DNA of 64,000 bases from Calonectria ilicicola (lineage: Eukaryota; Ascomycota; Sordariomycetes; Hypocreales; Nectriaceae). Positions 41,324-64,000 of this stretch are shown piece after piece; positions within the stretch are counted from its first letter, which is position 1; each line of letters opens with the position of its first letter. The position numbers were made by a program, and so were the translations under genes. Location: NCBI GenBank assembly GCA_020809705.1, contig CP085826.1:7316001-7380000 (forward strand), in the 5' to 3' direction. The notes beneath the pieces are model-generated. The model was given only the letters and a program-made list of their open reading frames with translations. It was not told the DNA's origin and ran no database searches.

Positions 41324-43414
41324 CTAAATCTTGCCCCTCTCAAGGAACTTGTTGGGGATATCTACATACTTGCTGCGAATATACTCGCACAAGTTCTTGC
41401 CCAAGCTATCAAAGCTCGACGTCGAGTTGAAGCCTCGGTCAAGATGGTCCTTGAGCAGGAAGTGCACGGCTCGGATGTTGGGCATCTCGCAGCGGTCAAT
41501 CTGGCGACCCGCGTCGTCCTTGCCGAGAAGTTCTCGCATCTTTGTGGTTGAGAGGACGGTTCGGAGCCAGTCCCACTCGTCCTCATGACGAACAAACAGA
41601 CCAAGATTGGCGTTGCTAGACTTGTCACCGGACCTGCCCATGACAACCCAGCCCAGAGGACCCCGGGTTGTAGGGCCAAATGAGGACAAGTCAGCAGGGT
41701 TTGAAGTCTCAGCCTGTGAGGGCTGCTCCCGGGCGAATTCTTGTGTCTTGGCCGGAGGAAGAATCCTCTTGACCGTGCCGTCGGGCAGATGAGCAGTCTC
41801 CTCAACAAAGCTCTGCGGCATCAAAGACACCCAGTACTCGAAAAACGGCCGGCCGACAGCCGTGCGCATGTCGGGCGCCATGGTGCCGCCGGGGTACGAC
41901 TGCAGCAGGTTCTCGATGCAGAAGCGTGCAAAGGAACCACGATCCGAGTCAACAAAGCTGCTGCCGGCGAGGAGCTCATCGTCGCGCGTCTGCGCGAAGA
42001 TGCGCAGGTCGACGGTGGCCTCCTCCTGCGACTGCGGGTTCTCAGGGATTGCGCCGGCAATCATGAACTTGAGACAGGAAAACTTGTCGAGATACTTGCC
42101 CATGCGGGCCTTTGTCTGGCGCTCGATCATGGCAGCTTTTTCTTCAACGTCGAGGCCAGTAAGATAAAAGTGGAACTCGGCCTGCCAACCGCCCTTGGCT
42201 GTGATGCCAACTGCGACATACATGATTAGCGGCAGTTCGGAAACTACAAGGAGGGTGGTTTCTGGTTTACTTACCTTTAGTGGTGGGAGGCGCAGGAAGG
42301 CCCTTGATACCGGAGACTCGGACGGCATTCTTGCCAACTTGTTCCAGCTTAACGTCTTCAATGGAAGCGGTCACGTCTGAGTTGTAATACAATGGACCCT
42401 GGATCTCATACAACAGCTGACTTGCAATGGTGGCTGTGTTGACGAGACCATCTTTACCCTGTTCCATGGTGATGACCGCCTCCCCGTTGGCTTCAATCGA
42501 GGCAATGGGGTATCCCATGTCGAGATCGTTGACACCCAGGTCCTTGAAACCTGAGTAGTAACCACCAGTGGCATAAGTTGAGCACTCAATGATGTGGCCC
42601 ACCATCAAAGCTGATGCGAGCTCAGTGACATGCTCTTCACGGTTCCATCCCCACCACCACATGGCGGCGCCGACGGTGACGGATGCATCGGCGACTCGGC
42701 CACATAGGACGATATCAGCGCCGGCTTTGAAGCACTCGGCGATGCCGGTACCGCCAAGGTAGCATTGTGCGCAGACTGGCTCAAAGCCCCATTCTTGGAT
42801 GGGCTTGTTGGCCGGGAGGTTCAAGAACGGCTCCCCTTGGACACAGTTAGTGATATATTTCTTTCTTATAGTGCATTTAGACATACCCTTCTTGTAGAGA
42901 TCCAAGACAGCATCGGTGACGTCGTCTCCATCGACCACGCCGACTTTCAAGTCCACGCCGTGCTTCTTGATGAGCTCCTTGACAGCATCTGCAAGGCCGT
43001 GAACATCCGAGGCGCCAGCATTGACGGCCACCTTTGTGCCCTTCTTTGCGAGCCATGGAATAGCGGGATCAAACTCTTCTAGAAAGTAGGGCTCATATCC
43101 CTTGGCCACAACCGTGGAGCCAGTGGCCATTTTGCGGTTGGCAAGCCTGTCTCGCTTGTCCGATCCTCGGAGAGTCATGTTACACTCACTCATCCAATCG
43201 CCAGTTATTACATCGACTTCCTCGTTCTTTGCCATGTCTTCCATGGCTCGCTTTCGGTCGTAGACACCTGATGCATGTCAGCTTTGGAGTCATGGTTCAT
43301 CATCAGGAACTTACCTCCGGAACATCCTGCAATACGGATGGGGCGCGACGAGGGCACACCAAGTCGCAGGCCACTGCCGTTTGTTGCATGGTCACTGGTA
43401 GCTGAAGGAGCCAT
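41324..43414 (-). CDS. AtuA-family (DUF1446) protein 1
   Basis: Acyclic terpene utilisation family protein, reaction unknown. Exons (minus) are 43414-43315, 43267-42887, 42835-42275 and 42210-41324; 642 residues. The N-terminal AtuA domain shows RIAGCSGG, VDVITGDWMSE, VAVNAGASD, ADIVLCGRVADAS, GHIIECSTYATGGYYSGF and LLYEIQGPLYYNSDV. The C-terminal small domain has GRSGDKSSNANLGLF and CEMPNIRAVHFLLKDHLDRG. The second intron (51 nt) has no in-frame stop, so retention would insert 17 residues. It ends ERGKI, at best a weak peroxisomal signal. An 11-bp motif shared with other cluster genes lies about 220 bp upstream. It marks the left edge of the catabolic cluster; the gene next to it (39245) looks unrelated. 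Confidence 0.93.
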
Positions 43415-44647
43415 TTTGGATAACTGTAGTGAATGGGTGAAGGTCAAAGAATGGAAACGAGAGTATACCTCATGGACCCTGAGACATTATATGCCAACAG
43501 ATTACAATGCCCACAAAATCCAAAATAGTACACAAAGAGGCATTATCCAATTAGTCCAGCCCATCTGTCACAGGTCCAACACTGCATTGTGGCGATGTGA
43601 TGATTACGGCTCTCTGCCTCCCAGGATGACGCTAATGATTCAGCGGAGGGTCAGGCACACTGTCTATCGTGCATTGCGGGGATTCGAGCTCGCTGCCCCT
43701 CACTCCAGGGTTCTATGGGCTTGGGGAAAATGATATACGAGGATGATGAACCATTGGTAAGACGATCCAGCATATCTAGGATCTAGCCGATCTGATAGAA
43801 TTACCCACGCTATGTTTTATCGCTGCCGAATCTTACTTACTCGTATTCGAGGCGTGTACAGTACAATCTTTGAAAGATTGTGACCCTCTACCTCTTCTCG
43901 CCATCTTCCAGCCGAACTATGAATAAACAAATAAAATAAAATAAAATTAAAATAAATAAATTAGATATATAATTTTACCATTTATTTCATTTATTTACTT
44001 TTTTTACCATGACGTCGAAATTCTAACGCGGTTAACTTCTGTGCTGGTGAAGATGAAGTCACCGGGCACAATCTTTCAAAGGGTGTGTATTGTAACAAGG
44101 ACTACCAGTATTTCGGCACTCGGTTGGACCAGGATATCCTCCATTAACATGCCGAACGTTGGAAAATGAATGTAACCATATTGAAACATCGTCAATATCT
44201 CCGATAAGGAAGCCTGTACTCTCATCCTTTTGGTTGCCATGATGACTCATCATGAAATAGAAGTAACAAGACAGCGAGTTGACTCGAATTTGGCTTACAG
44301 TGTGCAATTTTCAAAAGACACACTCATGGCTGCATCATATTTCTTCTTGTTTCTTCGTTTTGCTTTTTCGCACAAAAATATTCGGATGGACTCGTAAATT
44401 AATTTATACCACACGCGCAGGCGCAGACGTTGCAACTCACCATCTCTCATCAGATCTTAGCAGTGCATTTGTTTTAATCTTGAACATTGAGACTTCAATT
44501 AAACATGCTAAATAAAATGTATTACCTGGTATACTATAGTCCCTATACCTTGCCATCGCATCCAGCAGGCAGGAATATTCGGACTGCTCCTGAGGCGACC
44601 TGCCTCTTACAGCGCAGCGGATATCCAAACAAAAACATATTCTAGCT
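43415..44647. other. Intergenic region with AT-rich core and small inverted repeat
   Basis: The promoter side of AtuA-1 carries a cluster motif at 43632. Around 43920-44010 the DNA is nearly pure A/T with repeated AAATAAA units. This core is flanked by an inverted pair, CTTTGAAAGATTGTGACC at about 43870-43887 and its near-complement GGCACAATCTTTCAAAG at about 44066-44082. No gene is supported. Confidence 0.45.
43632..43642 (-). promoter_or_regulatory. Cluster motif TGAATCATTAG, copy 1
   Basis: Read on the minus strand, about 220 bp upstream of the AtuA-1 start. It is identical to the copies at 47779, 53001 and 54842. Confidence 0.6.
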
Positions 44648-45404
44648 TTAGTCCTTGTAAAGATATCCATCCTTCTTCCTAAGCACGTGATGCTTCAATC
44701 CCGTTCTCAAGTGTTTCGTGTTGGCAATGCTCTCTTGAATTGCCTTGCTGGGAACATGTACGTCTTTCAAGTACTCGGGGCTCTCGTATGCCTCAGCTGC
44801 AAATAGGCGGTTTTCCTGCTTTGGATCTCTCAAAATTCCGTACATCAAGGTTCCCGTCTCATCGCGACTTGTCTTCGCTACTGCATCCCAGTATGGGAGC
44901 GATGTGTCGACACCGCCAGGAACGTAGTCGAGCTCAGCAAAGAGAACATGCGGATCTCCAAGATCCTGCACTTCGGGTCGGATATGTCGAGAATCCGGAA
45001 GGTACTCCAAGACAAACATTTCGGGTTTAGTGCCGGGCTCTAGCACCTTTTCCTCGGCGAGCCACTGTTCGGCGGATTTCACTGAAGGGAGGGACATGTG
45101 CTCGTCGAATGCTGCTTGATCGGCGTATCTGGCTGTGTCAGCGGTGTCGCTTGGACAGGTTTTAGCACTTACTCCTCAATTGCATAAACGGTGGTGGAAT
45201 CATCTTCGCGCGGGATGAAGGAAGCATATTTCAAGGTCCCCGGCTCATTTCTCTGTGCGGAACCCGCTAGAACCCGTAACCTGTCGAGCAGCTGTAATTG
45301 AGGTTAGCAGTGAACCGTTGGATGATGAAGGGTGAACATGCTTGGTCACGGCGGGTCTCGTCGACCAAGGTCAATCGCGCAAAAATGAAAATTCTCTTGG
45401 ACAT
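44648..45404 (-). CDS. Tandem ABM-domain protein (antibiotic-biosynthesis-monooxygenase-like)
   Basis: Small alpha+beta barrel oxygenase-type or dimeric ferredoxin-fold protein. Exons (minus) are 45404-45342, 45291-45173 and 45128-44648; 220 residues. Two ABM units are seen: IFIFARLTLVDETRRDQ with NEPGTLKYA and YAIEEYADQAAFDEHMSLPSV, then VLFAELDYVPGG with DETGTLMYGILRD and FAAEAYESPEYLKDVHVPS. The first intron (50 nt) needs a GC donor (CAA/GCATGT) with a perfect GCTAAC branch site and CAG acceptor; only this choice keeps the first ABM strand in frame. ABM proteins oxidise or isomerise aromatic or quinoid compounds without cofactors, or simply bind them. It lies just downstream of the CoA ligase gene on the same strand, inside the cluster. 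Confidence 0.82.
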
Positions 45405-47512: not shown

Positions 47513-48069
47513 TATTGGGGATTATGGAGAACGGTGTCTTGGAAATAGAGCATGTAGAGAATCGTCACTGAAAACATATTGATAGTCTTGTTCAACCGGT
47601 GATTTTGTGTATATGAAACTAGTGACGATATATTCATTGTTGTACCGGCTAATGAGGGAGATGTCTTCCGCCATCCCTGCGTATGGCATTCAAACATTTA
47701 CAACATGATACTTTCAAGATCTCGGTAAAGTGACACATCTGACGTGCATTGGGGCACTAGCGTGGATGCTGAACGCACTGAATCATTAGCTTAATGCACC
47801 TCCGCCGCTGCCGAGATGGGGTCACACGGGGGTGGGGGTTGGGATGAAATGGAGAAGTGAGGAGATACAGTTGACTAGGCTGCATTGAAACGCCCTTTTG
47901 TTACTCATCGCTGGTAATGTTTGCCGGGCGAGCCATCGCTTGGGTATCGTTGCAGAGGCGTTGGATTGAGGTGAGCTGGGTGGACATGTCTGAGAGCTCG
48001 AACAACCTCACCAAGATTTTGCTTTAGAGCCAGTATTGAGTTTTCGAATATTATCAAATAATCTTCAAC
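47513..48069. promoter_or_regulatory. Divergent promoter, CoA ligase / AtuA-2
   Basis: 557 bp between divergent starts, holding one exact cluster motif at 47779 and a G-rich stretch at about 47827-47843. A shared site here could control both genes. Confidence 0.5.
47779..47789 (+). promoter_or_regulatory. Cluster motif TGAATCATTAG, copy 2
   Basis: Lies about midway between the ligase (267 bp) and AtuA-2 (281 bp) start codons, within CACTGAATCATTAGC. Confidence 0.65.
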
Positions 48070-49953
48070 ATGTCAGCCATCGCTCCCCAAACGAAGACAC
48101 GCCGTCCGATTCGGATCGGAAATGCGTCTGGAGCGATCGGCGATGGCATCGATCAGGTGTACCGTCTTGCAACCTCCGGCGCCGTGGATGCCATCACAGC
48201 CGACTACCTCGCCGAATTCAACATCGCATGGAAGGCCATCGAACTTCAAACGAGGCCTGATCTGGGTTATGAACCAAATTTTCTGGAACAATTGGCATGG
48301 AATAACGGTGACGCTGCCCGTGCCGTGGCCAACAATCACATCAAGATTGTTCACGACGGAGGTGCACTCAATCCGAAGGGTCTGGCAGAAAAGGTCGATT
48401 CCTATTTTGTCAGTTTGGGAATAAGGCATATGAAAGTTGCCTGGGTTGATGGCGACAATATTACTGAGCATGTCAAGAGCAACCGACTGGGAGCTCTGAG
48501 ACACCTTGACCAAGACGGCCGAACCTTTGAACCGATTGGCAATCAGATCCTTGCAGCGAATGTATACACTGGGCAACGTGGAATTATAAAAGCTCTTGAG
48601 GAGGGCGCCGATATTGTCATCTGCGGTCGATGCTGCGATGCCTCCCCGGTTATGGCCCTGGCAACTCACTGGCATGGGTGGTCAGAAAATGACTACCACC
48701 AGCTTGCCGGCAGTTTAATGGCCGGGCATCTTATCGAATGCGGTGCCTATGTCACTGGAGGAAACTATTGCGGTGCCAAAGAGATTGCGAAACTGCACCA
48801 TGCTGGTTACCCAATAGCAGAGATCGCGGCCGAGGGGACCTCCATCATTACCAAACCAGAGGGAAGCAACGGAGCTGTGACGGTAGACACATGCAAAGGC
48901 CAGCTTCTTTACGAGATCCAAGGACCGAGATATCTGAACCCAGATGTCGTGGCTCAGATTGATGGCGCTATCTTGGAACAAGTAGCGAAGGACCGAGTCA
49001 AATTGTCTGGAATCGTCGGATTACCTCCGCCCTCAACGGCAAAGGTGGCAATTTGTGCTTTAGGCGGATATCAAGCCGAGATATCAGCATATGCCGCGGG
49101 CCCAGACGTTGATGACAAATTTAACCTCATGAAGTACCAAGTGATGGGACAAATAAACAAGGATGATTTTACAACATTCAGTATCGAAAAATACGGGTCC
49201 TCAGTCGCCAACCCTCGATCACAAAAAGAATGCACGGTGCAATTTCGCCTGTTTGCACAAAGCACAAAGAAGGAAGCATTCACTCAGTTTAGAAGAGCTA
49301 TTTTCTATAATGGAATGCAAGGCTACTGTGGATTGCATCTTGCAATGGATTGGCGAACTATGGAGCCAAAGCCTTTTGTTCAATACTTTCCTGCCCTGAT
49401 TCCACAGGCATCGCTCCCCAACCTTTTGGTTCATTTTGTCGCTGGGAAGACATATGAGGTGGCCCCTTCAGGCCTCAAAGATGCGGCGGCCTTACCAGAG
49501 AAGTCATCAGATACAATTATTTCACCGAGGCAAGCGACATATTCATCCCGGCAAACCGTTAGACGACCATTGGGCGACCTCTTCTTTGCCCGCAGTGGTG
49601 ACAAAGGCGGCAACGCCAATGTCGGCTTTTGGGTCCGAGACCCGAAGGCCTTTGCGTTTGCACAAACCTTCTTGACTGTACCGAAATTAATCGAGCTCCT
49701 TGCAAATGACTGGGATTCTAAATACTCAGTTGAGAGATGTGAATTCCCGAATCTTCATGCTGTTCACTTTGTAATTAAAGGAATTTTGCAGGAGGGCGTC
49801 AGCAGCAGTAGTGTACTAGATGGGTTTGGAAAGAGTGTCTCGGAGTTTTTGAGAGCCAGAATTGTTGACCTCCCAATGGATTTGGTTCAAGATGAAGAGA
49901 AAAGGCGGAAGGAGGCTGAAAGAATCGCCATGTCTATCCGAGCTAGGATATGA
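48070..49953 (+). CDS. AtuA-family (DUF1446) protein 2
   Basis: Second AtuA-type protein, intronless, 627 residues. It shares the family blocks IRIGNASG, VDAITADYLAE, IVHDGGALN, ADIVICGRCCDAS, GHLIECGAYVTGGNYCG and LLYEIQGPRYLNPDV, and the C-terminal domain ARSGDKGGNANVGFWV with CEFPNLHAVHFVIKG. It is clearly more distant from copies 1 and 3 than they are from each other; for example it lacks their QAEFHFYL/QAEWHFYL form (QAEISAYA here). The C-terminus is IRARI, comparable to the AKI-type PTS1 known from yeast multifunctional beta-oxidation enzyme, so peroxisomal import is plausible. Biochemical role unknown. It shares a promoter region with the ligase. Confidence 0.93.
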   Translation: MSAIAPQTKTRRPIRIGNASGAIGDGIDQVYRLATSGAVDAITADYLAEFNIAWKAIELQTRPDLGYEPNFLEQLAWNNGDAARAVANNHIKIVHDGGALNPKGLAEKVDSYFVSLGIRHMKVAWVDGDNITEHVKSNRLGALRHLDQDGRTFEPIGNQILAANVYTGQRGIIKALEEGADIVICGRCCDASPVMALATHWHGWSENDYHQLAGSLMAGHLIECGAYVTGGNYCGAKEIAKLHHAGYPIAEIAAEGTSIITKPEGSNGAVTVDTCKGQLLYEIQGPRYLNPDVVAQIDGAILEQVAKDRVKLSGIVGLPPPSTAKVAICALGGYQAEISAYAAGPDVDDKFNLMKYQVMGQINKDDFTTFSIEKYGSSVANPRSQKECTVQFRLFAQSTKKEAFTQFRRAIFYNGMQGYCGLHLAMDWRTMEPKPFVQYFPALIPQASLPNLLVHFVAGKTYEVAPSGLKDAAALPEKSSDTIISPRQATYSSRQTVRRPLGDLFFARSGDKGGNANVGFWVRDPKAFAFAQTFLTVPKLIELLANDWDSKYSVERCEFPNLHAVHFVIKGILQEGVSSSSVLDGFGKSVSEFLRARIVDLPMDLVQDEEKRRKEAERIAMSIRARI

Positions 49954-50476: not shown

Positions 50477-51551
50477 ATGAGCGCCAGCGATAGACCCGTC
50501 AAGAATGCCTCTGGGCGATACGACAATGTCGACTTTCGAAAGGCTGTCGGATACAAATACCCACCTCTGAAGTGTAGCTACAACCGCAGAGATGTCTTGC
50601 TCTTTGTAGGCGCTAATCGCTCAAATTTAATGAAGTGAAGGACTGACAAAATTGTGCAGGCCAACGCAATCGGCGTCAAGGCAGAGGAGCGTCACTTTCT
50701 CTACGAGCTTCACCCCAAATTTGCCACGTTTCCGACTTTCCCAATTAACCTAGCTTTTAAACGAACGGACCATGATGTATTTGACTTCATCGCCCGCACC
50801 GCTTCGGCCGAGATCCCCGGCACTCCTCCTTTCGATGCTCAAAGGTCAGTTGATGGAGAGAGAGCCATTGAGATTATCAAGACTATCCCCACCAGCTCGG
50901 AGGGGTTAGATCTTGAGATCCACAACAAGGTCATTGGTGTTTATGACAAAGGTAAGCATCACCACTACGATTGATCGGCTGCAGTGATTAATTTTTTTAT
51001 TAGGTGGCGCCATGATTCTTGAGGCGGAACAGGAACTCGTGGATGTGAAAACTGGCACAGTTTACGCCAAGATGGCATCTACATCCTTTGGCATGGGCCA
51101 GGGTGGCTATGACGGACCTCGTGGCCCCTCGAAGCCTTCCCCCAAGCCCCCTAAGCGAGCCCCAGATGCAATCCACACTTTCCAGACGACTCCTGAGGTC
51201 GCCCTCCTTTACCGCCTCTGTGGTGATTACAACCCAATGCACGGCGACGAGGCATTTGGAAAGCGAGCAGGTTTCAAGGGAAGCATTTTGCACGGATTGG
51301 GAACATGGAACATTGTCTCCCACGGCGTTCTGAAGGAGCTTGGAGGCTCCGACCCAAGCCGATTCAAGAAGTTTGGTGCCCGATTCAAGAGTGTCGTTTA
51401 CCCTGGAGATGAACTTGAGACGCGCATGTGGGTGGTAGGATCTAAGGATGGTGTTGACGACGTTCTCTTCGAAACTATTGTCAAGGGTGATGGACGCGTG
51501 GCTTTGTCTAATGGATTTGCGCAATTGGTGCAAAAGGACAGCAAGTTGTAA
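50477..51551 (+). CDS. MaoC-type peroxisomal 2-enoyl-CoA hydratase 2
   Basis: Hydrates trans-2-enoyl-CoA to (3R)-hydroxyacyl-CoA. Exons are 50477-50605, 50660-50951 and 51004-51551; 322 residues, in phase. It is a double hot-dog protein like the C-terminal domain of fungal Fox2, but free-standing, with no attached dehydrogenase domains. The N-terminal half has YPPLKCSYNRRDVLLFANAIG. The hydratase-2 signature in the second half is YRLCGDYNPMHGDEAFGKRAGFKGSILHG, keeping the catalytic Asp/Asn and His. The C-terminus is SKL, the canonical PTS1, so it should be peroxisomal. Lying beside AtuA-2 and two crotonase-type hydratases, it probably serves the cluster pathway rather than general beta-oxidation. 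Confidence 0.92.
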
Positions 51552-51876: not shown

Positions 51877-52728
51877 CTACAAATGTGATGGGAACCATTT
51901 CGGATCCCTCTTCTCTCGATATGCAGCGAGACCCTCACTGGCATTTTTACTCCTCAACATGGCTTCTGCCCAGAGTTCTTGTCCTCTCATGGTGGCCCGG
52001 CTGACTCCGGTTTCCCACACCTCTCGAGCGCCAAGTCGGGAAATAATGACACTATCTGGGCTTAGGCTGGCTATTTCAGAAGCATAGTCAAGCGTCCTGT
52101 CAAGTAGCTTATCCAACGGGACAATCTCTTTGACAAGCCCCCATTGTAGTGCTTCCTCAACCGTAAGCGTTCGGCCTGTGAGGACAAGGTCCATGGTGCG
52201 ATGGTTACCAAATAGCAGCATTGCTCTGGGAAGTGCTCCAGCGAGCGCAGAGACACCGCGCAGCACCTCGGGAAGTCGAAATGATGCATTCGGGGAGGCG
52301 AATACAACGTCGGAATTGAGGACTATCTCAAAACCACCACCATGGGCATGTCCATTGACTGCGCAGATGATTGGCTTTTTCCCAGTTCTGTTGGTCATAC
52401 CACCAAAGCCACCATGAGGGTACTCGAGCGCGACATCGTTTGTTTTGATAATGTCAAGCCTCTGTTTCAGGTCCATACCAGCGCAAAAGGCTTTGTCGCC
52501 AGCACCGGTGAAAACAGCGCACCTGAGCTCAGGCTCGGCATCGTACCATTTCCAAAGCGCTCCCAATTCAATGGTTGCTTCTACCGGAAGGCAATTGCGG
52601 TATTCTGGTCGGTTGATTGTGACGAGAAGAATGTGCTTGCGAGGGAAGCTAACAATGCTGTGCTCAACGTGGGGATACGGATTCTCAATCCACGAAGGGA
52701 TAGGGTTTTTCGTCCTTGGGGTGGCCAT
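51877..52728 (-). CDS. Enoyl-CoA hydratase/isomerase (crotonase family) 1
   Basis: Single exon, 283 residues. Crotonase fold: oxyanion-hole strand FCAGMDLKQRL, GHAHGGGFEIVLNSD and FRLPEVLRGVSALAGALPR. Both glutamates equivalent to Glu144 and Glu164 of rat enoyl-CoA hydratase are present (GGGFE and LPE), so hydratase activity is expected. It ends WFPSHL; SHL is an accepted PTS1 variant. In the bacterial Atu pathway a crotonase (AtuE) hydrates isohexenyl-glutaconyl-CoA; an equivalent step here is inference. It is divergent from crotonase 2 over 731 bp with a cluster motif between. Confidence 0.92.
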   Translation of the reverse strand: MATPRTKNPIPSWIENPYPHVEHSIVSFPRKHILLVTINRPEYRNCLPVEATIELGALWKWYDAEPELRCAVFTGAGDKAFCAGMDLKQRLDIIKTNDVALEYPHGGFGGMTNRTGKKPIICAVNGHAHGGGFEIVLNSDVVFASPNASFRLPEVLRGVSALAGALPRAMLLFGNHRTMDLVLTGRTLTVEEALQWGLVKEIVPLDKLLDRTLDYASEIASLSPDSVIISRLGAREVWETGVSRATMRGQELWAEAMLRSKNASEGLAAYREKRDPKWFPSHL

Positions 52729-53459
52729 GTCAAAAAATTAGGATAGTGCGTTGTTCACTGGGTCAATCACTGAATTGATGGGATGCAAAGGAAAAGACTC
52801 TGGACAGCTGCAATTTTGCTTCCATCGTTAATCCGGAGAATGCTCCTCAGAATAGCTTCTTCACCTCGGTTGATTTCGGTCAATGGATATCCGACATAAA
52901 ACTGAAGCATGCCTGCTCTTGGTGCCCTTACATCACATCACTCGTTGCAGTGTTCGAATGATCAAACTGTCCACTGTATCCTTGACCGCTATCTATTTAC
53001 TGAATCATTAGTGCGCCTTCTCGGACCAGCTTCCCCGCATTTCGGGGGTGTGCCTCGGCCTCCACCCAGTTGCCATGTCAGCCGAACACTATTCCAAGCG
53101 AGACAGGGATGGAGACACGAGGAAAGGTTCCTGCATGCACCTGCATTGGGAAGTGAGTTTGATCTGGCTGGTTTAGTCTGATCTGGGGTGCGTTGGGGTG
53201 ATGGAGCCCGAGATTCACTGAACTGATTGATGATGTTTCTAGCCGTGGGATTACGGCAATAATTGTTCTGTTTGGGCTGAGTAGCAACCTACTGAGTGCT
53301 CTCATATTTTTTATGTCCTAAGAAACAAAATCCCAACAAGATTCATTATCATCGCCATTGGGCAATTGCGCACGCGTTTTCTGTGCTCCATCTGGACCAA
53401 GTCTACAGATTTTCAATCCACCATCGACTTCAACCTCAGCACAGGCGACGACTTTCAAG
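52729..53459. promoter_or_regulatory. Divergent promoter, crotonase 1 / crotonase 2
   Basis: 731 bp between divergent starts. It holds an exact cluster motif at 53001. The frame of crotonase 2 is open upstream to 53358, but with a non-coding-like sequence and a non-ATG beginning. Confidence 0.5.
53001..53011 (+). promoter_or_regulatory. Cluster motif TGAATCATTAG, copy 3
   Basis: Within TTACTGAATCATTAGT, which has imperfect dyad symmetry (ACTGA/TTAGT arms). It lies 273 bp from the crotonase 1 start and 449 bp from the crotonase 2 start. Confidence 0.65.
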
Positions 53460-54296
53460 ATGTCTTCATATCCTACAACAACGCCTCCCCCTCCAACGCC
53501 TACATTTCTCAAGCTGAGCTTTCCGGCTCCCCGAGTCGTTTTGGTTCGCATGGATAGACCCAAGGATCTCAATGCGATGTCTACGGCGGCTCAATGGGAA
53601 ATGGACTCAATCTGGAAGTGGTTCGACGACGAGCCTAATCTTTCAGTCGCTATCATTACAGGTACCGGCAGGGCATTTTCTGCTGGAGCTGATCTCAAGG
53701 AGTGGAACAACTCCATGTCAGACGATGCAGACCCGAGCAAACGAATGGGTAACGCGCCTGCCTTCAAGCCGCTGAGCCGTCGTCTAGGAAAGAAGCCCGT
53801 GATTGCTGCGGTCAACGGTCTTGCAATGGGCGGCGGCTGCGAGTTTGTGGTCAACTGTGACTTGGTTGTTGCGGCAGAGGATGCATACTTTGGGTTGCCC
53901 GAGGTTCGTCGTGGAATTGCAGCGATTGGTGGTGCCCTGCCTCGATTGATACGCATCATTGGCTTGCAAAGAGCATCCGAATTCGCGCTTACGGGGCGTA
54001 ATGTGACAGCCCAGGAGATGTTTCAATGGGGGATTGTAAACAAAATTGTTCCCAAGGAGCAAGTTGTTGAAGAGGCAGTGAAGTATGCTGAGATGATTGC
54101 CAAGAACAGTCCCGATGCAATCATCTGTACACGAGCAGGAATCCGTCAAGGATGGGAGACTGCAGCGGTTGAGAGAGCAGTTGATTGGACACTAGAGAGA
54201 GAATTCACAGAGCTACAAAAGGGAGAAAATATTCTAGAGGGCCTCAAGGCATTTTCGGAGAAGCGGGAGCCGAAATGGAAGGGAAGCCGGCTGTGA
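53460..54296 (+). CDS. Enoyl-CoA hydratase/isomerase (crotonase family) 2
   Basis: Single exon, 278 residues from the ATG at 53460 (MSSYPTTTPPPP). Crotonase motifs are GRAFSAGADLKEW, GLAMGGGCEFVVNCD and FGLPEVRRGIAAIGGALPR; both catalytic Glu positions are kept. It shares the ending -EKREPKWKGSRL with crotonase 1 (-EKRDPKWFPSHL), suggesting the two are paralogues by duplication; SRL is a good PTS1. Having two active-looking crotonases and one MaoC hydratase in one cluster points to several double-bond hydration steps or to different stereochemistry. Confidence 0.92.
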   Translation: MSSYPTTTPPPPTPTFLKLSFPAPRVVLVRMDRPKDLNAMSTAAQWEMDSIWKWFDDEPNLSVAIITGTGRAFSAGADLKEWNNSMSDDADPSKRMGNAPAFKPLSRRLGKKPVIAAVNGLAMGGGCEFVVNCDLVVAAEDAYFGLPEVRRGIAAIGGALPRLIRIIGLQRASEFALTGRNVTAQEMFQWGIVNKIVPKEQVVEEAVKYAEMIAKNSPDAIICTRAGIRQGWETAAVERAVDWTLEREFTELQKGENILEGLKAFSEKREPKWKGSRL

Positions 54297-55371
54297 GTCT
54301 CGATTATTACCATATGAAATAGGTAGATCGAATTTGGAATATGTAATTTTACAGTGAAATGACAAAACCCTGATATTAGATGCATATAATTTATGAAGTA
54401 TAAGGAAAGGGGCTAGGTCATATGGAATTTATTATATTATTATCATGATCCTACGATAAGCTATCAGTCATGGGAGGGTTATAGCCCCGATTACGCCTCG
54501 ATAGAGTCAACATGCTGGCATGCTTCATTCAACAAAGCACCAACTGCACAATCTTGAGAAATGTTGAACAAGCACGCTGAATCATGTTTGAACTTTTTTT
54601 TTAACGTCCCTGAGAGTTGCATCCGGTGTTTCCGACTGCACGAGTTTGGTCACCCTCCCACGCAACCCCCTGGTTTAGTATTGTAACAATAGATCCGTGA
54701 GCGTCGTAATACCAAGCAAGTGAGATGGGAAACAGGTATTACTGCTTACGCTTGGAACGACTATTTTGAACTACAGATAAGGGAGCTCGCGTGGTCTGTG
54801 TCGTCAAACCCCTCATGTTCCAAGATTGGGGACACAAGCACCTAATGATTCATTACTTCACGCGCTTGTTAGCTGGGCTACTTTTGCCTCTTACCCTTGA
54901 CTCCCGGCCCTAGCGACACCGCCCCTTCCCCGCAAATCTAAGCTGCATTATGGTTCCCATTTTCCGGGATAATCTGGGGTAACAAATCCGGGGATGTCAT
55001 GGTAGCTATTGGCTGCGTGGTGGCAGTCAGCTCGATGGGTTGACGTCTCACAGTCCAAGAACTGCCCACGAATTTGGGTTAGTTCGCACGATCATAGCGC
55101 CACACGGGAGTCGCTTGGGAGTTTCTCTCCTGATTTCGTACAAGGGATGTAGTTGACAGTCTGGACCTGCACCCAAAATCAGTGGCATGTTCTACCCCCA
55201 CCTGAAAAGAGATATTTTCATCAATATGTAAGACATAAGGTGCCGATCACCCCCCCTTGGGTAACATATTACTGCCGGATTTCTCCTTTCAATTTATCCC
55301 GAGTCTCGAATTTCATACTATTCTCATCTTATCTCATTCTCAAGCCATTGGATATATGGATCTATTTAGCT
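54297..55371. promoter_or_regulatory. Promoter region of MFS transporter 1
   Basis: 1.07 kb with an exact cluster motif at 54842. Another TGAATCA core sits near 54569. No gene is supported. Confidence 0.45.
54842..54852 (-). promoter_or_regulatory. Cluster motif TGAATCATTAG, copy 4
   Basis: On the minus strand, 520 bp upstream of the MFS transporter start, within CCTAATGATTCATTA. Confidence 0.6.
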
Positions 55372-57255
55372 ATGGACGAGAATAAGATTGAGCATACTGC
55401 CGAGCATCTCGACATTGTCGAAGAAAAAGAGCGGGCAAAGCACGACACCGACGCTTCCTCTATCAACTCTGCAGCACTCGGTGATGACCTTCCACCTGGA
55501 TACTTTTATTCACTTCGCTTCCTTGGAGCTCTTGCTGTGAGTTGAACAGACCCAACATGCAGAATTTAAACTTACCAAATTTAGGGCTTCTGTTTTTCTG
55601 CCATCAGTGCCTACATCTTTCTGATCCTCCCGACAAATGTCTTGACATATATCAACGCCGATATTGGCCCAAGCAATTACATTTCTTGGGTAAATATTGC
55701 CCGTACCTTGGCATTGTCGTTTACATATACTATCCTCGGCCGACTCTCCGATCTCTTCGGTCGCCGGTGGTTTTTCATTGGAGGAAATATTGTTGCCCTG
55801 GTGGGAATCATCATTTGTGCGACAGCTCAAAATGTCAATACACTTATCGTGGGAAGCGCCGTGTATGGGCTTGGTGAGACTGTCCAACTCAGCTTCAACG
55901 TTGCAGTCGGTGAGTTGGTACCAAACAAGTATCGACCAATGGTTCTCTCATTTGTCTTTCTTACAAATGCCCCAATTGCTACTTTTGGACCGATCATAGG
56001 TGAGTTCATACAGTCCAATCATTTTATTTTATATTCTAATCAAGTATAGCCCGTAAGTTTATTGAGAACCCTTCGCTTGGTTGGCGTTGGTGTTATTACA
56101 TCAACATTATCGATGTCGCGCTTGCTATTATCCTGCTCTTCATTTTCTATCACCCACCGACATTTGAACTTCTTCACGAACGCAAGACCAAAAGGCAACT
56201 TCTCAAAGATCTTGATTACTTGGGCATTTTCCTCTGGACTGCTGGTCTTACCATCTTCTTGATGGGAGTCTCTTGGGGTGGCAGCATGTATCCATGGAAG
56301 TCAGCTGCAACAATATGTTCCCTGGTTCTTGGAGGACTGCTTTTGGTTGCCTTATTTATTTGGGAAGGATTTGCCAATCTCACCTATCCTGCGATTCCTG
56401 TCAAGTTTTTCGCCAACAGAGGATTCATGTCCCTAGTCTGTTGCGCGACCGTCGCCAGTAGTGAGTAATCGATTTCTGAACTAACCTGGTATTTGGCTAA
56501 TTTGTCCAGTGTTTTATTATAGCGCCGTCTTGCTCTGGCCTCAACAAATCCAAGCTCTATTCACCACCGATGTCACTTATGCTGGGTGGCTATCTTGTAC
56601 CGTGGCTTCCTCAACAGCGCTAGGTCAGATTTGCGCTGGCGTAATTGTGAGGTGGGGAGGAAATGTCCGGTACTGGTTGATCTTTGCCACCTTCTCCATG
56701 GTTGGATTTGTTGCTGCGCTTGCATCTCTCACCCCAAACGACAAAAATACAGGTGTCGCACTCACTATCCTCGGCCCATTCTTTGTCGGCTTTATTGAAC
56801 TTGCATCCTTGGCTCTGGCTCCTCTGTTCTGTGCAGCACAGGACATTGGGCTTGCGTCAGGTCTGCTCGCATCCATTCGATCAGCAGGCGGTTCAATCGC
56901 AGTCGCAGTCTACACCACCATTCTGAAAAACAGATTGGCCACAACCATTCCAAATAATGTTATTCCTGCAGTAGAAGAGGCAGGGCTCCCAGAGAGTCAG
57001 GTTTCGGACCTTCTCGCAGCCATCAATGCTGATGATTTGTCGAGTTTCTCACAGGCGGTTCAGGCTGCTGTGAGCTCTGCCTTGCCTACAGCATATGCAC
57101 AAGCTTTCAAGACAGTCTATCTAGCTAGTCTTGGATTTGGTGCCATTGCAATTATCGGATGTCTCTTTTCAAAGGATGCTAAGAAACACTTGACTGACAA
57201 GGTTGAGCGACGAATGCATGATGGCAAAGCAACCAAGAAGCCACAGGATGTTTAA
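55372..57255 (+). CDS. MFS transporter 1, TRI12/DHA2-type
   Basis: Proton-coupled export or import carrier of the 14-helix fungal TRI12-like group. Exons are 55372-55536, 55585-55999, 56050-56460 and 56510-57255; 578 residues, all phases closing. The cytosolic N-terminus is charged. Helices begin at FLGALAGFCFSAISAYIFLIL; the MFS signature loop between helices 2 and 3 is GRLSDLFGRRWFFIGG, and VYGLGETVQLSFNVAVGELVPNKYR is characteristic of TRI12-like carriers. The C-terminal tail is Lys-rich. The family carries siderophores, trichothecenes and other small molecules; here uptake of the cluster substrate or efflux of toxic intermediates is inferred from location and a shared promoter motif. Confidence 0.92.
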
Positions 57256-57500: not shown

Positions 57501-58353
57501 TTAGCAGTTCCATCCTCCATCAATACTAACAGCGTTTCCGCTAATATAGCTGGCATCGTCACTCAAGAGGAAAGCAATCAAGGCAGCCACTTCTTCAGGC
57601 TTCCCTTGTCTCTTCAGCGCTACATCATTCACAGTCTCCTTCTCAAATTCTGCCGTAGTTCCCCAAGTCTCGGCTGCCTTGGCCGCTGATCTAAGCATCG
57701 GTGTATCAATACGTCCACTATGTCGCAAAGCAGTTAGATTTGGGCATCTCGAATTATTAGAGAATGGGGGGAACGTACGGGCAAATGGCATTAACTCGAA
57801 TTCCTCGGTGGCCGGCATCCTTTGCAGCAGATCGAGTCAACCCTATTACTGCGTGTTTGCTGGCTGAGTAGGCGCCGTTCTTCTCTCGTCCAATTAAGCC
57901 AGCAATTGAGCTTGCATTAACAATGCTGCCATGATCGGCAATGTTTTGGAGCTCCGCCTTGAGGCAGTACATCACGCCGGTCGTGTTAACTCCGAGAACA
58001 AACTCCCACTCATCAAAGTCTTGCTGCTCAAGCAACCCGTGGTTTCCACCAATTGATTTGGGAACAACACCGGCCAAGTTGGCGGCTCCATCAAGTCGAC
58101 CAAATTTAGCGACAGTCTCCTTGATCCATTCATCAACTTGATCCCACTTGCGGACATCCAAGGGGAACATCAATACTTCAGAGTGGTATTGATCTTCGAT
58201 TTCTTTTCGGGCCTTTTCGAGGCCTTCTTTAGAAAGATCAGCGATCGAAAGCTTGGCTCCACGACTGGCTACAAGCTTTGCTGTGGCGAGACCAATCCCG
58301 GAGGCAGCCCCAGTGATGGCAATCACCTTGCCGGATAGTTGAGTGTTTGACAT
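57501..58353 (-). CDS. Short-chain dehydrogenase/reductase
   Basis: Classical SDR using NAD(P). Exons (minus) are 58353-57779 and 57717-57501; 263 residues. Motifs are TGAASGIG (cofactor loop), NLAG-type NAAG region (ANLAGVVP), the catalytic Ser in NASSIAG and YSASKHA (Tyr and Lys), and the C-terminal SGNAVSIDGGW. An acidic residue after strand 2 (SIADLS) favours NAD over NADP. The end, GWNC, is not a PTS1. In the bacterial Atu system AtuB and AtuG are SDRs; here it may oxidise an alcohol, aldehyde or hydroxyacyl-CoA intermediate. It is downstream of AtuA-3 in the same direction. Confidence 0.92.
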
Positions 58354-58619: not shown

Positions 58620-60609
58620 CTATAGATGCCCGTCTTGGATGAATTTCTTCGGTACTGGAACCACCTTTGCCCTCAGATACTCGCCCAGATTTTTGGCCAA
58701 GGTATCAAGCTTGCTTCCCGAATTGTAACCCCGATCAAGATGGTTTTTTAACAAGAAATGAACCGCCCGGATGTTTGGCATCTCAAATCTATCTATGCGA
58801 CCTCCACTGTATTCATGCGCTCCCAAAAGGCCTTTAAACCTATCAATGGTAAGGAAAGCGCGTAGCCATTCCCACTGCTCGTCATCGGGAACAAATAGTC
58901 CGACATTTGCGTCGGACGCCTTGTCACCTGAGCGCGAGAGGGCAACCCAACCCAATGGTGCTTCTTCCGTGGGGCCAAACGAGTCAAGTGATCGAGGATT
59001 AACAGGGTCATAAGACTCTTGAGCACCATATTCCTTCATCACAGGCGGCAGATGAATGGGTATTATCTCTTCATCTCCAAATAAGAGGTGGACGCGGTGA
59101 TTGCAGGCACTCTGAGGGATGAGAGACACAAAATATTCCCAGTAACTTTTTGGCGCCGATTGCCGTAGGTCATTCGGACGAGAAACACCCTGTGGGCACA
59201 CTAATGTTAGAAATTCCGCCGCGAGTTAGTTTATCGGAAGACTTACCGGGCACGATTGTAGCACAGTCTCATACAACTTTCTCGCAAAGCCATCGGGCTT
59301 TGATCCATCAAACAGCTCGGCTCTGGGGCCTTGAGCGAAAATGCGAAAGTCGACGGTGGCTATCTCTTGGTTGACTGGGTTCAGCGGGCTAGTGCCATGG
59401 ACATGGAACTTGAGCATGGTAAATTCTTGAATGAGCTCTTCTCCGATCGCGTAACGAGCTTGTTCTTCCATCCAACGGCACTTTTCCTCTATATCCAATC
59501 CTACCAGATAAAAATGCCACTCAGCTTGATATCCGCCATGGGCTGTGATCCCGACGCGTGTAGTAGGGGGTGGAGGAGATCCCCTTATGCCAGATACATG
59601 AACAACATCCTCTTCGACTTGTTGTATCGCAATGTTTCGCAGATCAGCAACCACGTCGGAATTGAAATATAACGGACCCGATATTTCATAAACCAGCTGT
59701 GATGTGACCGTTTCCGTATTAACAATGCCATTTGTACTCTCTTCTTTGGTAATGTTGCATTCACCATTACTAAGCACTTCGGCAATTGGAAATCCGAGAC
59801 CAAGGTGTTTTTTTGCCTTCATAAGATCTTTGAAGCGGCTATAATAGCCCCCGGTGACAAACGCTGAACATTCAATCAAGTGACCAGCAATGAGAGCTCC
59901 AGCAAGCTCATCGAATTGATGCGCCTTCCAGTTGTGCCAATATGCTGCCAAACCGATTGTTGGTGCCGCATCGGATACCCTGAATTGATTAGAATACTCG
60001 ACGCCAAGATCACCGTGATTGATTGGAATTATTGTCTTACCTTCCGCATATTACAATATCCGCTCCTTTTCGGAATGCTTCTGCAATTCCAAGACTTCCC
60101 AGGTATGCCTGGGCGCATATGGGCTCATGTCCCCATTCGCTCAGAGTTTTCCCATCTGTAGAGCTAACAAATTCATGGCCATTCGCGACCATGTTCTTGA
60201 AGGCACCCGTCACATCATCGCCTTCAATCCAAGCTACATTCATGTTAAATCCAGCTTTTTGAACCATATCTTGTACAACTCTAGCCAGAAGTTCAGTGTC
60301 ACTTGCCCCGGCGTTGACTGCCAATTTTGTTCTATTCTCTGCGAGAAAGGGTATCGCCGGTTCAAAGCATTGAAGAAAGGTACTGGCATACATTGCTGTC
60401 TTTTTACGCTCCTCGAGAGGGAGAGTAAAAATAGAGACATCTTGCCGGGCTTTACCAGCACCATAGCCCGTCATGACATTTTCAGATAGCCAATCCCCCA
60501 CGATAGCATCAACCTTGGGATCCTTTGCCAAACGCGAAATTGCTTCGACGCGATCGGTGAACCCTCCGGATGCGCCCGCAATCCGAATGGGGGCTCTATT
60601 AGAAGGCAT
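58620..60609 (-). CDS. AtuA-family (DUF1446) protein 3
   Basis: Third AtuA-type protein. Exons (minus) are 60609-60041, 59979-59247 and 59189-58620; 623 residues. It shares with copy 1 IRIAGASGG, VDAIVGDWLSE, LAVNAGASD, ADIVICGRVSDAA, GHLIECSAFVTGGYYSRF, LVYEISGPLYFNSDV, GGYQAEWHFYLVGLDIEEK, SRSGDKASDANVGLF and FEMPNIRAVHFLLKNHLDRG, so copies 1 and 3 are the closer pair. None of its introns sits at the position of a copy 1 intron. It ends QDGHL, a weak PTS1-like end. A near-exact cluster motif lies about 340 bp upstream. Function unknown. Confidence 0.93.
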
Positions 60610-61024
60610 GATGAAAGCTCAAATATCCGATTCTAAATGATCGAATAAGCTAAAAGAGAGAGATAAATGATGGATTGACCGTAGTGTGCTTTCTGTCTTC
60701 TGCGCAACTTGTATGAAGCCATTCAGTCTTTAATTACTGCCACCTCGCTCTTTACAGATAGCCACCCTAAGTCAATACAACATCCACTACGTAAATCCTC
60801 AGCTTTGCACCAAGTGATGCAAGTCCAGTGAGCAAGAATACCGAGGTTGGATTGGAAGAGGGCCAAAATTAGGGACTAGGCGACCTCTAGCCCGCGTATC
60901 GAAATCCGGGTCAACTGCGACTTCGGATTTTGGGGCTAACCCCCGCACTGATGATTCAGTGTCAAGTTGGAGCACTTGTTTACTGCATTTAGCCGTAATC
61001 CTTTTTTAGACAACGAAGGAGTCA
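60610..61024. promoter_or_regulatory. AtuA-3 promoter and bZIP 3' flank
   Basis: 415 bp with a one-mismatch copy of the cluster motif at 60948 and a CCCCGC box just before it. Nothing coding was seen. Confidence 0.4.
60948..60958 (-). promoter_or_regulatory. Cluster motif, near-exact copy 5 (TGAATCATCAG)
   Basis: One mismatch to TGAATCATTAG, on the minus strand, upstream of AtuA-3. The surrounding CACTGAATCATCAGT is a good dyad. Confidence 0.5.
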
Positions 61025-62372
61025 TTAGGGCGAATTGGAAAGTGGCACCGGTACCTGACTGTTGTCAATGATCTGGCCGGAGTCAAGGTCAATTAGGCGA
61101 GCAATCTCCGGAAATCGACTTCGGAATGTAACTCCGATCGTCCAATTCCGAATCTGACGCATGTGCTCCTCGTATACTGGGTTTATGGTGGTTTCTGCGG
61201 TTCCGTTCCCATTGATGGATGCTGCGAGGAGAACAGATGAAGGGTGATATGGCCAATTCAACTCGAATTCTGAGCTGTAAGTGGCCGCAAAGTCATCCAG
61301 GCTAATTTCCGGGTGGTTGATAAGATACTCTCTTGCGCGCGGCCTGGTTCATTAGTAAAGTGGGAAATAATGAATCATCGGGCCGTACCAAGGGATCCGA
61401 TCTATCCACGCCGAGTGAGGTATTGAGAATTGGCTTGGGATCGGTCGTAACCAGTCGGGCATTAGATCCCAACTCTGCTTGTCTAACATGACCATCCACT
61501 AGATCTATTTGTTAGCACCCTCATCTAATTTCCAGTGTATGCATAAAACCTACCTTGAGAAGTGTCGCCATGACGTAAAACACTGCAACTTGCTTTGGAA
61601 GGCCCTCAATCTCGCGATATGTCCTCAGCACATCCGCCACCACATTGCTAATCTCGTCATCGGATCGATGGTCTTCGTCGATCAAGCTACTTAGATTTGG
61701 ACGAAGTGGAAACCTTGCCGCTTTGCTCCCTGGAGATGAAGGCTGGAATGCATTCTCCGCCCGTACAGTATCAACGAAGCCCTGAAGAATCTGATCTGCT
61801 AGACATCCAGGCAGCGTGTTTTTCGGATAAAGCTCCCATAGAGCTGGGTTCATAGTGCTCGCGTTGCTAACAACGCTGGGACTGTGACCTGTGTCTTCAC
61901 CAAACCCATCACGTCCCATCAGACTTAGCTGTAACGCAGCATTCTGAGTGCGTAGCTGTGCATTTTCATTTTCCAAAAATCCCAACCTGGCCTCGAGCAT
62001 ACCCATGGCCCGGCCTTTCTCCTCGAGGGCATTCGACAAATAGGCGACCTGATCATTCAGAACTTGAATGGTCCACTTGTTTCGATCGCGCATTGCCTGC
62101 TGGGACTTGCGATCCCTAGCCCGTTTGCGTTGCAATTCTTGCTCGCGCAATGATGACAGCGCTGAATCATCGTCATTCTGGTTGCTGCTGCTGCTGGCCA
62201 TGATGGGCAATAGACCTGAGATGCATTGAGGGTGGCGTGCAAGTGGAGGCCTGGGGAACGCGGGGTGAAATATGGGGGCTATGGGCTGTTTCTGGGGTGG
62301 TGTTACAGGGCCTTGGGGATCGTTGCAGGGGCTGACAGGGGTCTCGGACCAGTGGAGTGGAGGGTCCATCAT
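61025..62372 (-). CDS. bZIP transcription factor with DUF3425 domain (putative cluster regulator)
   Basis: DNA-binding regulator. Exons (minus) are 62372-61554, 61498-61389 and 61343-61025; 415 residues, all phases closing. The basic region is RKRARDRKSQQAMRDRNKW, followed by a leucine-zipper-like coiled coil (about 85-130). The DUF3425 domain has LPDWLRP-like MPDWLRPIPSQFSIPHSAWIDRIPWPRARE, then the helix VLLAASINGNGTAETT region. An alternative start at the Met of MASSSSNQ (62201) would drop 57 Pro-rich residues. Such bZIP-DUF3425 proteins are often local regulators of catabolic or secondary-metabolite clusters. AP-1-like bZIPs bind TGA-N-TCA cores, which fits TGAATCA in the shared motif; this link is inference. 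Confidence 0.88.
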
Positions 62373-62542
62373 GTGGGAGGGGTCATGGAGAACGATTCCC
62401 TAGGGTCACAGCAATTATTCCATGATGTAAGAGCAGCCAATTTATGTAAGGTTGGATAATATGGGTCGATTTCGAATAAAAACGGTTTGATCTATTTTGA
62501 TTGAAATCACCGCTGATTTAGGCCTTACGACAAATTCCCGTC

Positions 62543-63376
62543 ATGATGATGGATGCACAAGCCCAACAATACATTGCGTCCTTGCACGACCAATCGATCG
62601 GGACAGCTTTGGAGGACACCTGGTATTGTATTTCTGTGTGCCTCACAGGAATCTTTTTTTTTAATTCTCGCTAATGAATTATCAGGCTTGTTCTTTTGCG
62701 GCTAGCAACAAAGGCCAATATGTTGCCGATGTTTTCACCGAAGCAATCAGAACAAGGCAAGAGGATTATGCGTACCACAGGCATGTCTTGAAAAGAATAA
62801 AAGGTATACTTTGGAGCGATCTTTCAATATCGTAGTTTCTTTTATTGACAAATTCCAGAGGGGCTATTGAAAACTGGCATCATATATGGCATCCCTCGTC
62901 TCATCAACGCATTCAGAGCCATCGTTCGAGTGCTTCCATCCCCGGAATCCATCGAAGTCTCATCCATCCGGAACCATATCACTACCCCGAGCGAAACGGA
63001 CGAAAGAGGTATTGAATACATGCGCAACATCTTTCGAGCCGATCTGGACCCTTTTCTCGGCTCTATGGACACGCATTGGCCTGACCTCCGCACACTTGTT
63101 GTCACCTATATTTATGGCTACTATCAATCCGACACCTCTGTCCTCGATGCTGTGACCACGTCACAGTTGAATATTGCTACGTTGGTTCCCATGGATGTTC
63201 CAGCTGAAGTAGCCTGGCATATGAGAGGTCTCGTAAGAAACGGTGGGACAGAGGAGCAACTCAAGGTAGCCTACTCCATCGCCTTAGAAACATGTAAAAT
63301 ATGCAATGTTCAGCTCAAAAATGAGATGCCACAGGCGCAAGATGTCATTAATGAAGAGCGCTTAATAGTAGATTAG
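62543..63376 (+). CDS. Carboxymuconolactone-decarboxylase-like (AhpD-like fold) protein
   Basis: All-helical protein of the CMD/AhpD superfamily. Exons are 62543-62635, 62686-62803 and 62859-63376; 242 residues. The first intron uses a weak donor (TCT/GTGTGC); it was chosen because the joined sequence DTWYCIS-ACSFAASNKGQYV keeps the conserved helix and the frame. Later blocks are KTGIIYGIPRLINAFRA and DLRTLVVTYIYGYYQSDTSVLD. The AhpD-type active-site CxxC is not in the expected place (a CKIC near the end is probably coincidental). Members decarboxylate or isomerise ring-cleavage lactones or act as peroxidases; the role here is unknown. It is divergent from the bZIP gene over 170 bp, so the two could be co-regulated. 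Confidence 0.8.
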
Positions 63377-63595
63377 AAATTCAGTCGTTTGGACGGCTCC
63401 GTTCTTGGATCGCTCTTGTAGGGTAGCTCGTACTCCAACTCATCGAGTGTATTTTTTTAAGAAAAGAATTCAACTATTTAGCATGATGAATCACTTTCTA
63501 ATTATTGCACTTAATTTATAATAAAATAAATTTTAAAATATTTCTGTAGTCGAAATCCAACTTCATGCCATGCGAGGACTTAGCTCCAGTTGTGT

Positions 63596-64000
63596 CTAAG
63601 ATGTAGTTTCAGAAGTCTCATTCTCCAACTTGGCAGCCACATTATTGGATCTCTGTGTTTTGTCAATAGATTTAACACTCAACGCAGCCATTATAGCCAC
63701 ACACCCAAACGCTATCGCTACTAGGTACACCATTCGGTAGGATTTTGAGTTGGACAAAAGGACGGCTTGTTGGACTGCGGCGGTAGTCGAATTGGTAATG
63801 CCAACAACTGCGCTGTAAGCAGCAGGCGTATTGACCTTGGCTGCAGCAAGTAAGGATGCAAATGTCCCATTGTAGTCAGTCTTTTCTGCTGCAGCCCGGA
63901 CTTGACCTGGCAGTAGTTTGTCAAATTCGCTTGTCTGGATGGACGTATAAATGGCTGTTGCGACCGCACCACCGATCAACCGAAAAGTGCTGATGAGCCC
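63596..64000 (-). CDS. MFS transporter 2, C-terminal part (cut by window edge)
   Basis: The last 130 or so residues of a second MFS carrier, open through the window end. It resembles the end of transporter 1 and other TRI12/DHA2-type proteins: the helix STFRLIGGAVATAIYTSIQ corresponds to SIRSAGGSIAVAVYTTILK of transporter 1. A loop with AAAEKTDYNGTFASLLAA, the final helix VYLVAIAFGCVAIMAAL and a polar tail follow. The start lies outside the window, so length and integrity cannot be judged. It is the 13th gene of the cluster seen here, and the cluster may continue past the edge. Confidence 0.85.
   Translation of the reverse strand, partial: GLISTFRLIGGAVATAIYTSIQTSEFDKLLPGQVRAAAEKTDYNGTFASLLAAAKVNTPAAYSAVVGITNSTTAAVQQAVLLSNSKSYRMVYLVAIAFGCVAIMAALSVKSIDKTQRSNNVAAKLENETSETTS

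Follow-up and report, generated by a model that had tools for sequence, protein, structure and literature searches.

The atuABCDEFGH cluster of Pseudomonas, known from the degradation of acyclic terpenes, encodes an AtuA homologue, a crotonase-type hydratase, an acyl-CoA ligase and a short-chain dehydrogenase/reductase (SDR), together with a geranyl-CoA carboxylase (AtuC/AtuF) and a citronellyl-CoA dehydrogenase (AtuD); its proposed logic is that a tertiary alcohol is formed by hydration and then cleaved. ThnQ and ThnS, which are also called AtuA-like, belong to a bacterial anaerobic aromatic pathway, the degradation of naphthalene, and are encoded with MaoC and crotonase genes in an operon with thiolases and acyl-CoA dehydrogenases. 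From fungi, AN10086 of Aspergillus nidulans is mentioned as an AtuA protein in a list in one report (PMC5371717), and another assigns two AtuA proteins of Phacidium infestans a guessed role in terpene uptake or detoxification (PMC12148953). In the literature searched, which left most subscription journals outside its scope, we found no fungal AtuA protein with a shown function and, as the initial annotation of the locus had supposed, no described fungal pathway with AtuA or with the gene set reported here. This set lies in a stretch of 64,000 nt of the Calonectria ilicicola genome (contig C2, positions 7316001-7380000, hereafter the window; the genome comprises 69.9 Mb in 12 contigs), where three AtuA proteins are encoded among enzymes acting on CoA thioesters.

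We are inclined to think that this co-localised cluster, whose core is conserved, runs a carboxylase-free hydrate-then-cleave pathway for beta-branched acids. A ligase would join CoA to an acid branched at the beta carbon, SidH-type crotonases or the MaoC protein would hydrate the beta-branched enoyl-CoA to a tertiary 3-hydroxyacyl-CoA, and the AtuA proteins, predicted C-C lyases, would cut at the tertiary carbon, after which the products would enter central metabolism. Since no ketone can be formed by oxidising a tertiary alcohol, ordinary beta-oxidation stops at this point, and cleavage beside the tertiary carbon would bypass the block. The MFS carriers, the SDR and a second ligase would serve substrate import and preparation. 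As to the substrate, our guess is an isoprenoid or alicyclic acid from plants, which may bear a further carboxylate in the beta position relative to the branch. We infer reaction, substrate, regulation and location from the observed gene content, neighbourhood, promoter element, C-terminal signals, folds and nearest relatives.

All 13 gene types that had been listed for positions 41324-64000 (three AtuA, CoA ligase, MaoC, two crotonases, SDR, ABM, CMD-like, two MFS, bZIP) were recovered from open reading frames (ORFs), spliced models and Pfam, the CMD-like protein scoring below the Pfam cut-off. Their order is as follows, with one further gene past the window end:

41324..43414, minus strand: AtuA1, 4 exons, 642 aa, AtuA/CmlA domain and AtuA_ferredoxin domain, without peroxisomal targeting signal type 1 (PTS1), predicted C-C lyase
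44648..45404, minus strand: ABM-domain protein, 3 exons, PF03992
45833..47512, minus strand: CoA ligase 1 (ligase1), 559 aa, AMP-binding, C-terminus TKL
48070..49953, plus strand: AtuA2, intronless, 627 aa, predicted C-C lyase
50477..51551, plus strand: MaoC / MFE-2 type hydratase, 322 aa, MFE-2 hydratase N-terminal domain, ends SKL
51877..52728, minus strand: crotonase 1 (crot1), 283 aa, ECH_1, SidH-type, ends SHL (a variant signal)
53460..54296, plus strand: crotonase 2 (crot2), 278 aa, ECH_1, SidH-type, ends SRL
55372..57255, plus strand: MFS carrier 1 (MFS1), TRI12 type
57501..58353, minus strand: SDR
58620..60609, minus strand: AtuA3, 3 exons, 623 aa
61025..62372, minus strand: bZIP-type DUF3425 regulator, candidate binder of the promoter element
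62543..63376, plus strand: CMD-like protein, Pfam 22.0 bits against a cut-off of 23
63596..64000, minus strand: MFS carrier 2 (MFS2), TRI12 type, cut by the window end, start near 65671-65689 in extended coordinates
66188-67948 in extended coordinates, past the window end: second CoA ligase (ligase2)

The proposal that these genes stay together in related genomes was examined by judging synteny from the contig membership and locus tags of listed relatives, two genes being assigned to one contig when size and species name agreed. The lists held the best 120 of 1495, 1705 and 7814 proteins. All 120 AtuA2 rows, 42 of the 120 AtuA1 rows and 41 of the 120 crotonase rows, the last picked because contig size agreed, entered the contig table; since only part of the AtuA1 and crotonase rows was used, the counts are lower bounds. 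At least 39 contigs carry two or more of AtuA1, AtuA2, crot1 and crot2 (10 of the 39 are shorter than 120 kb), so that co-localisation was confirmed for the core; a crot1 or crot2 relative occurs on at least 32 of the 120 AtuA2 contigs and AtuA1 on at least eight. In all four species with ordered tags, the tags of AtuA1 and AtuA2 differ by two; Microdochium bolleyi, whose AtuA1 and AtuA2 identifiers are 8 apart and are not ordered locus tags, was excluded from the tag counts. The distance from AtuA2 to crot1 is two tags in three of three species and that to crot2 three tags in five of six (five in Sarocladium), a spacing that equals the order AtuA2-MaoC-crot1-crot2 of the window. AtuA2 is fused to a MaoC protein with 72-77% identity to that of the window in P0094 (Neoarthrinium) and in P0110 and P0115 (Colletotrichum), P0110 representing 33 member sequences, and this shows the gene between AtuA2 and crot1 in the relatives to be MaoC. 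In P0116 (Cudoniella) AtuA2 is fused to a CoA ligase with 42% identity to ligase2 versus 34% to ligase1. These fusions may be annotation read-through; the adjacency holds either way. AtuA1 relatives fused to a TauD dioxygenase (P0141, Neoarthrinium) or an M28 peptidase (P0185, Verticillium) probably reflect read-through into neighbouring genes.

The conserved core thus consists of AtuA1, AtuA2, MaoC, crot1 and crot2, the genes that the comparison covered, with a ligase in one fused relative; it was found in Sordariomycetes, Dothideomycetes, Leotiomycetes and Eurotiomycetes (one to two species looked up per class). Assigned by best match to the copies of the own genome, all 120 listed AtuA2 matches are AtuA2-type, and the 120 listed AtuA1 matches comprise 81 of AtuA1 type, 39 of the type of a paralog on contig C9 (L012) and none of AtuA3 type. 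With no AtuA3 ortholog among these 240 relatives (best 120 each of AtuA2 and AtuA1 as queries, AtuA3 itself not being one), the set of three AtuA genes, seen by the initial annotation as a feature of the pathway, is present here but probably a local trait, AtuA3 being probably a lineage-specific relative of AtuA1. The ABM gene is probably a local insertion as well, because two genes separate AtuA1 and AtuA2 here and one tag does so in the four relatives with ordered tags. The initial reading of one degradation pathway is partly supported, in that the data favour one conserved pathway cluster with a common promoter element.

This element, CTAATGATTCA/TGAATCATTAG, is the most frequent 10-mer in the 7.0 kb of intergenic DNA of the cluster when all 10-mers are counted. 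Its five copies and one with a mismatch are located as follows:

43632..43642, plus strand: CTAATGATTCA, 219 bp upstream of AtuA1
47779..47789, minus strand: TGAATCATTAG, divergent ligase1/AtuA2 promoter
53001..53011, minus strand: TGAATCATTAG, divergent crot1/crot2 promoter
54842..54852, plus strand: CTAATGATTCA, upstream of MFS1
60948..60958, plus strand: CTGATGATTCA, one-mismatch copy, upstream of AtuA3
65897 in extended coordinates: promoter common to MFS2 and ligase2

The exact element is absent from 50.3 kb of flanking DNA, and allowing one mismatch adds the AtuA3 copy in the cluster versus two in the same background. The whole genome of 69.9 Mb has 27 copies of the element versus 17 of a reversed control, and five of the 27 fall within the 22.3 kb of the cluster (Poisson 4e-13, before correcting for the choice of the word). 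Taken together, the synteny and promoter-element tests put the cluster beyond chance. The element contains a TGATTCA core, which we take to be of the kind bound by bZIP proteins, and the DUF3425 protein of the cluster is a candidate for binding and controlling it; Pfam finds DUF3425 alone in this protein, and the basic region was seen by eye. A second word, CTTCCCCGCA, occurs in three intergenic regions of the cluster but nowhere in the 50.3 kb of flanking DNA. Of the 22 copies that the first element has outside the cluster, two (C7:83165-83175 and C7:5332066) lie inside a DUF3425 match or no more than about 0.5 kb from one.

The three AtuA proteins all match PF07287 (E 2e-158 or better) and PF23544. 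In a fold comparison both the AtuA1 type and the AtuA2 type match the citramalate-lyase fold, and they are predicted to be C-C lyases. The invariant residues of the fungal proteins include R187, D190, E223, Y281 and E282. The initial annotation had read hydration and dehydrogenation from the gene mix; because of this fold match, hydration followed by C-C cleavage is the likelier logic. The assignment rests on the fold comparison, since in a profile search with AtuA2 the first match, 9erq (E 0.026), stood barely above designed repeat proteins (0.031). A single-sequence search of the PDB with AtuA2 returned only 9qkx, a de novo TIM barrel, which was rejected as chance. In an NCBIfam scan AtuA2 matched no family, and the listed matches of ligase1 and the crotonases stayed under the cut-offs.

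Several C-termini of the enzymes are of the PTS1 type: by sequence, the signal is present on MaoC and crot2 and, as a variant, on crot1. Relatives of crot2 end in SRL or SKL in 52 of 52 cases, and those of crot1 (n=68) in SHL (46), SHI (11) or SYL (11). An end of the form [KR]L is found in 86 of the 120 listed AtuA2 relatives, or in 82 of 116 without the four fused proteins, whose end is not that of AtuA2; the commonest such ends, ARL and AKL, are named as functional PTS1 variants in PMC3709128. We thus predict that the hydratases and AtuA2 are peroxisomal and that AtuA1 is not.

Enzymes missing from the cluster bear on its mode of action. The genome holds 23 matches to acyl-CoA dehydrogenase/oxidase (PF02770) and 32 to thiolase (PF00108), none of them in the cluster, and no carboxyltransferase match was found in the 81 kb stretch read around it. 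The absence of oxidase, thiolase and carboxylase fits a hydrate-then-cleave route, but it does not fit plain beta-oxidation or an Atu pathway of the Pseudomonas kind confined to the cluster. A classical Atu-type pathway for acyclic terpenes could still draw its biotin-dependent carboxylase from genes elsewhere, which we regard as unlikely. Bacterial AtuA genes do usually adjoin a carboxyltransferase: this was seen at 47 of 80 loci, the best 80 of at least 584 relatives, and, among the 32 whose flanks exceed 9 kb on each side, at 24, with a query that itself came from one of the 80 loci. At about 1.1 such genes per Mb (at least 229 matches in about 207 Mb of 32 genomes), fewer than one of the 32 loci would be expected to have such a neighbour by chance. 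Contig 7 of the own genome, too, has an AtuA gene beside a carboxyltransferase and a biotin carboxylase. The AtuA of that locus, however, is a separate one. In a tree built from 68 sequences (10 from the own genome, 18 other fungal ones and 40 of the 80 bacterial ones) it sits on a long branch together with bacterial AtuA (support 0.90 for the bacterial side), whereas the cluster copies fall into a fungal clade that comprises nine copies of the own genome (support only 0.57). Moreover, within the AtuA1-to-crot2 core of Neonectria ditissima there are only three unassigned tags, the number that ligase, MaoC and crot1, their presumed identities, would fill.

The hydratases suggest another explanation, namely that the cluster handles mevalonate or anhydromevalonate, for instance as siderophore acyl groups. 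By a wide margin, the nearest solved structure of both crot1 and crot2 is SidH, the mevalonyl-CoA hydratase (PDB 7oeq), whose substrate carries a tertiary 3-hydroxyl, and among the five close SidH-type genes of the genome (E 2e-55 or better to crot1, next match 8e-26) crot2 scores highest against SidH (281 bits, the others 229-261). The best SidF-type acyltransferase match, however, is on contig 3, at a distance of about 5 kb from another of the SidH-type genes. For this reason that gene is probably the siderophore enzyme and crot1 and crot2 are probably dedicated paralogs, despite the top score of crot2; to our knowledge SidH needs no AtuA. SidH and SidI are peroxisomal according to PMC3709128, in accordance with the mevalonate explanation, which we nevertheless ranked lower after the contig 3 match and hold to be very improbable. 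The two TRI12-type carriers and the ABM protein, types often found in secondary-metabolite clusters, would suit biosynthetic tailoring instead of catabolism. Yet Pfam finds no polyketide synthase, peptide synthetase or terpene synthase among the 13 genes and ligase2, and the core is spread over four classes, as most secondary-metabolite clusters are not; we give a biosynthetic role very little credence. Finally, the AtuA proteins might have another role on CoA esters than that of lyases, for which the 14-15% identity to the solved lyase and the presence of several copies in two subfamilies would speak; this appears quite unlikely to us.

Several observations weigh against the hydrate-then-cleave pathway that we prefer. 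The same low identity to citramalate lyase applies here, and a common fold leaves the reaction unfixed. Known AtuA-type substrates have a carboxylate beta to the alcohol, and no gene of the cluster would add one; the result on ThnQS is unpublished data cited in a review. None of 81 AtuA1 relatives has a PTS1-like [KR]L end, and the enzymes may thus reside in more than one compartment. With the fungal queries, MaoC was found near none of the 80 bacterial AtuA loci, many of which have short flanks. For 88 of the 120 AtuA2 contigs there is no crotonase relative among the matches listed, where absence and non-listing are inseparable, and in Fusarium zealandicum AtuA1 and AtuA2 are on separate contigs. 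The element was first spotted by eye and counted afterwards, was not found upstream of MaoC, SDR, ABM, bZIP or CMD, and outside the cluster its count of 22 is close to that of the reversed control (17).

Further AtuA genes of the genome have other neighbours. Beside seven paralogous loci (stretches of 6-9 kb read) an SDR was found at two, a class III CoA-transferase at two (L014:5244-6272, L017:1641-3116), DUF3425 at two (L011:4949-5350, L017:7-753; 57 DUF3425 matches genome-wide) and a carboxyltransferase at one, with no match to MaoC, ligase1 or crotonase. At the contig 7 locus (L013:3438-7486, L105:2136-5770), AtuA, acyl-CoA carboxyltransferase and biotin carboxylase are adjoined by an RPE65-type carotenoid oxygenase; this is a candidate for an Atu-like carboxylase locus in a fungus, and its substrates may be apocarotenoid acids or the like. 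At C8:2385496-2387856 a weak match to AtuA and one to CoA-transferase III are each reported with an open frame of 962 residues, possibly that of one fused protein. Near the bacterial AtuA genes the fungal queries found crotonase at 32 of 80 loci, ligase at 13 and SDR at nine. The VIA-align lists may miss families, and absences there carry no claim.

The edges of the cluster were placed as the initial annotation had them: on the left a riboflavin-kinase gene (PF01687) adjoins, and on the right the cluster runs past the window through MFS2 to ligase2. Two larger ORFs tested past ligase2 lack a Pfam family, Pfam having been applied in the outer flanks to larger ORFs only. GC content is 0.46-0.51 across the cluster and 0.53-0.57 in the adjoining 6 kb leftward (36-42 kb), by itself weak evidence for an edge because windows further left span 0.47-0.57. 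Genes for an arylsulfotransferase, RNA-dependent RNA polymerase, RIO kinase, aspartyl protease, NmrA-like protein, abhydrolase and aminopeptidase P at 6929-38189 form an ordinary mixed neighbourhood. In the hand-made model of the ABM gene, the reading frame is preserved across the first intron (45292-45341) only if a GC-AG donor is assumed. The closest solved structures of ligase1 are luciferases and 4-coumarate ligases. Among the best 120 matches per query, the closest named relatives are nectriaceous (AtuA2 80% identity to Neonectria punicea, AtuA1 90% to Dactylonectria macrodidyma, crot1 93% to Ilyonectria robusta).

The cluster would provide fungi with a likely new means of digesting branched molecules that are out of reach of ordinary fat breakdown. 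A wider reading, which we consider possible and hold only tentatively, is that ascomycetes have an alternative to beta-oxidation for branched carbons that is peroxisomal and needs no carboxylase, made up of SidH-type hydratases and single-chain AtuA lyases in a bZIP-controlled cluster whose core occurs in at least four classes; on the same tentative footing, it would have escaped description as long as the function of the AtuA domain was unknown. AtuA/DUF1446 proteins are numerous, with nine fungal-clade copies in this one genome and relatives in many ascomycetes. Should they prove to be C-C lyases, a layer of the breakdown of branched or alicyclic plant compounds by fungi could be read from genome sequences, aided by direct assays, a defined set of core genes and a promoter element open to testing. 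Fungi would, moreover, have a way past branched carbons that does without biotin-dependent carboxylation.

Compared with the Pseudomonas Atu system, the fungal cluster has an AtuA homologue in common and the same proposed logic, and its crotonase, ligase and SDR agree in type at the family level only. It differs by yielding no match to a carboxyltransferase or an acyl-CoA dehydrogenase, and by its additional MaoC protein and second crotonase, its peroxisome-type signals and its two or three AtuA proteins, where Pseudomonas has a single one. SidH has a PTS1 in common with the crotonases of the cluster, but acts in siderophore biosynthesis. The citramalate lyase CmlAB (PDB 9erq, 9evf) consists of two chains in 9evf, whereas the fungal AtuA proteins are single chains; these adjoin CoA-thioester enzymes, unlike CmlAB, and for this reason their substrate is likely a CoA ester. 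ThnQ and ThnS, likened to the fungal proteins by description, come from a different kind of pathway, but the cleavage reported for them, that of a tertiary 3-hydroxyacyl-CoA, is the very reaction predicted for fungal AtuA.

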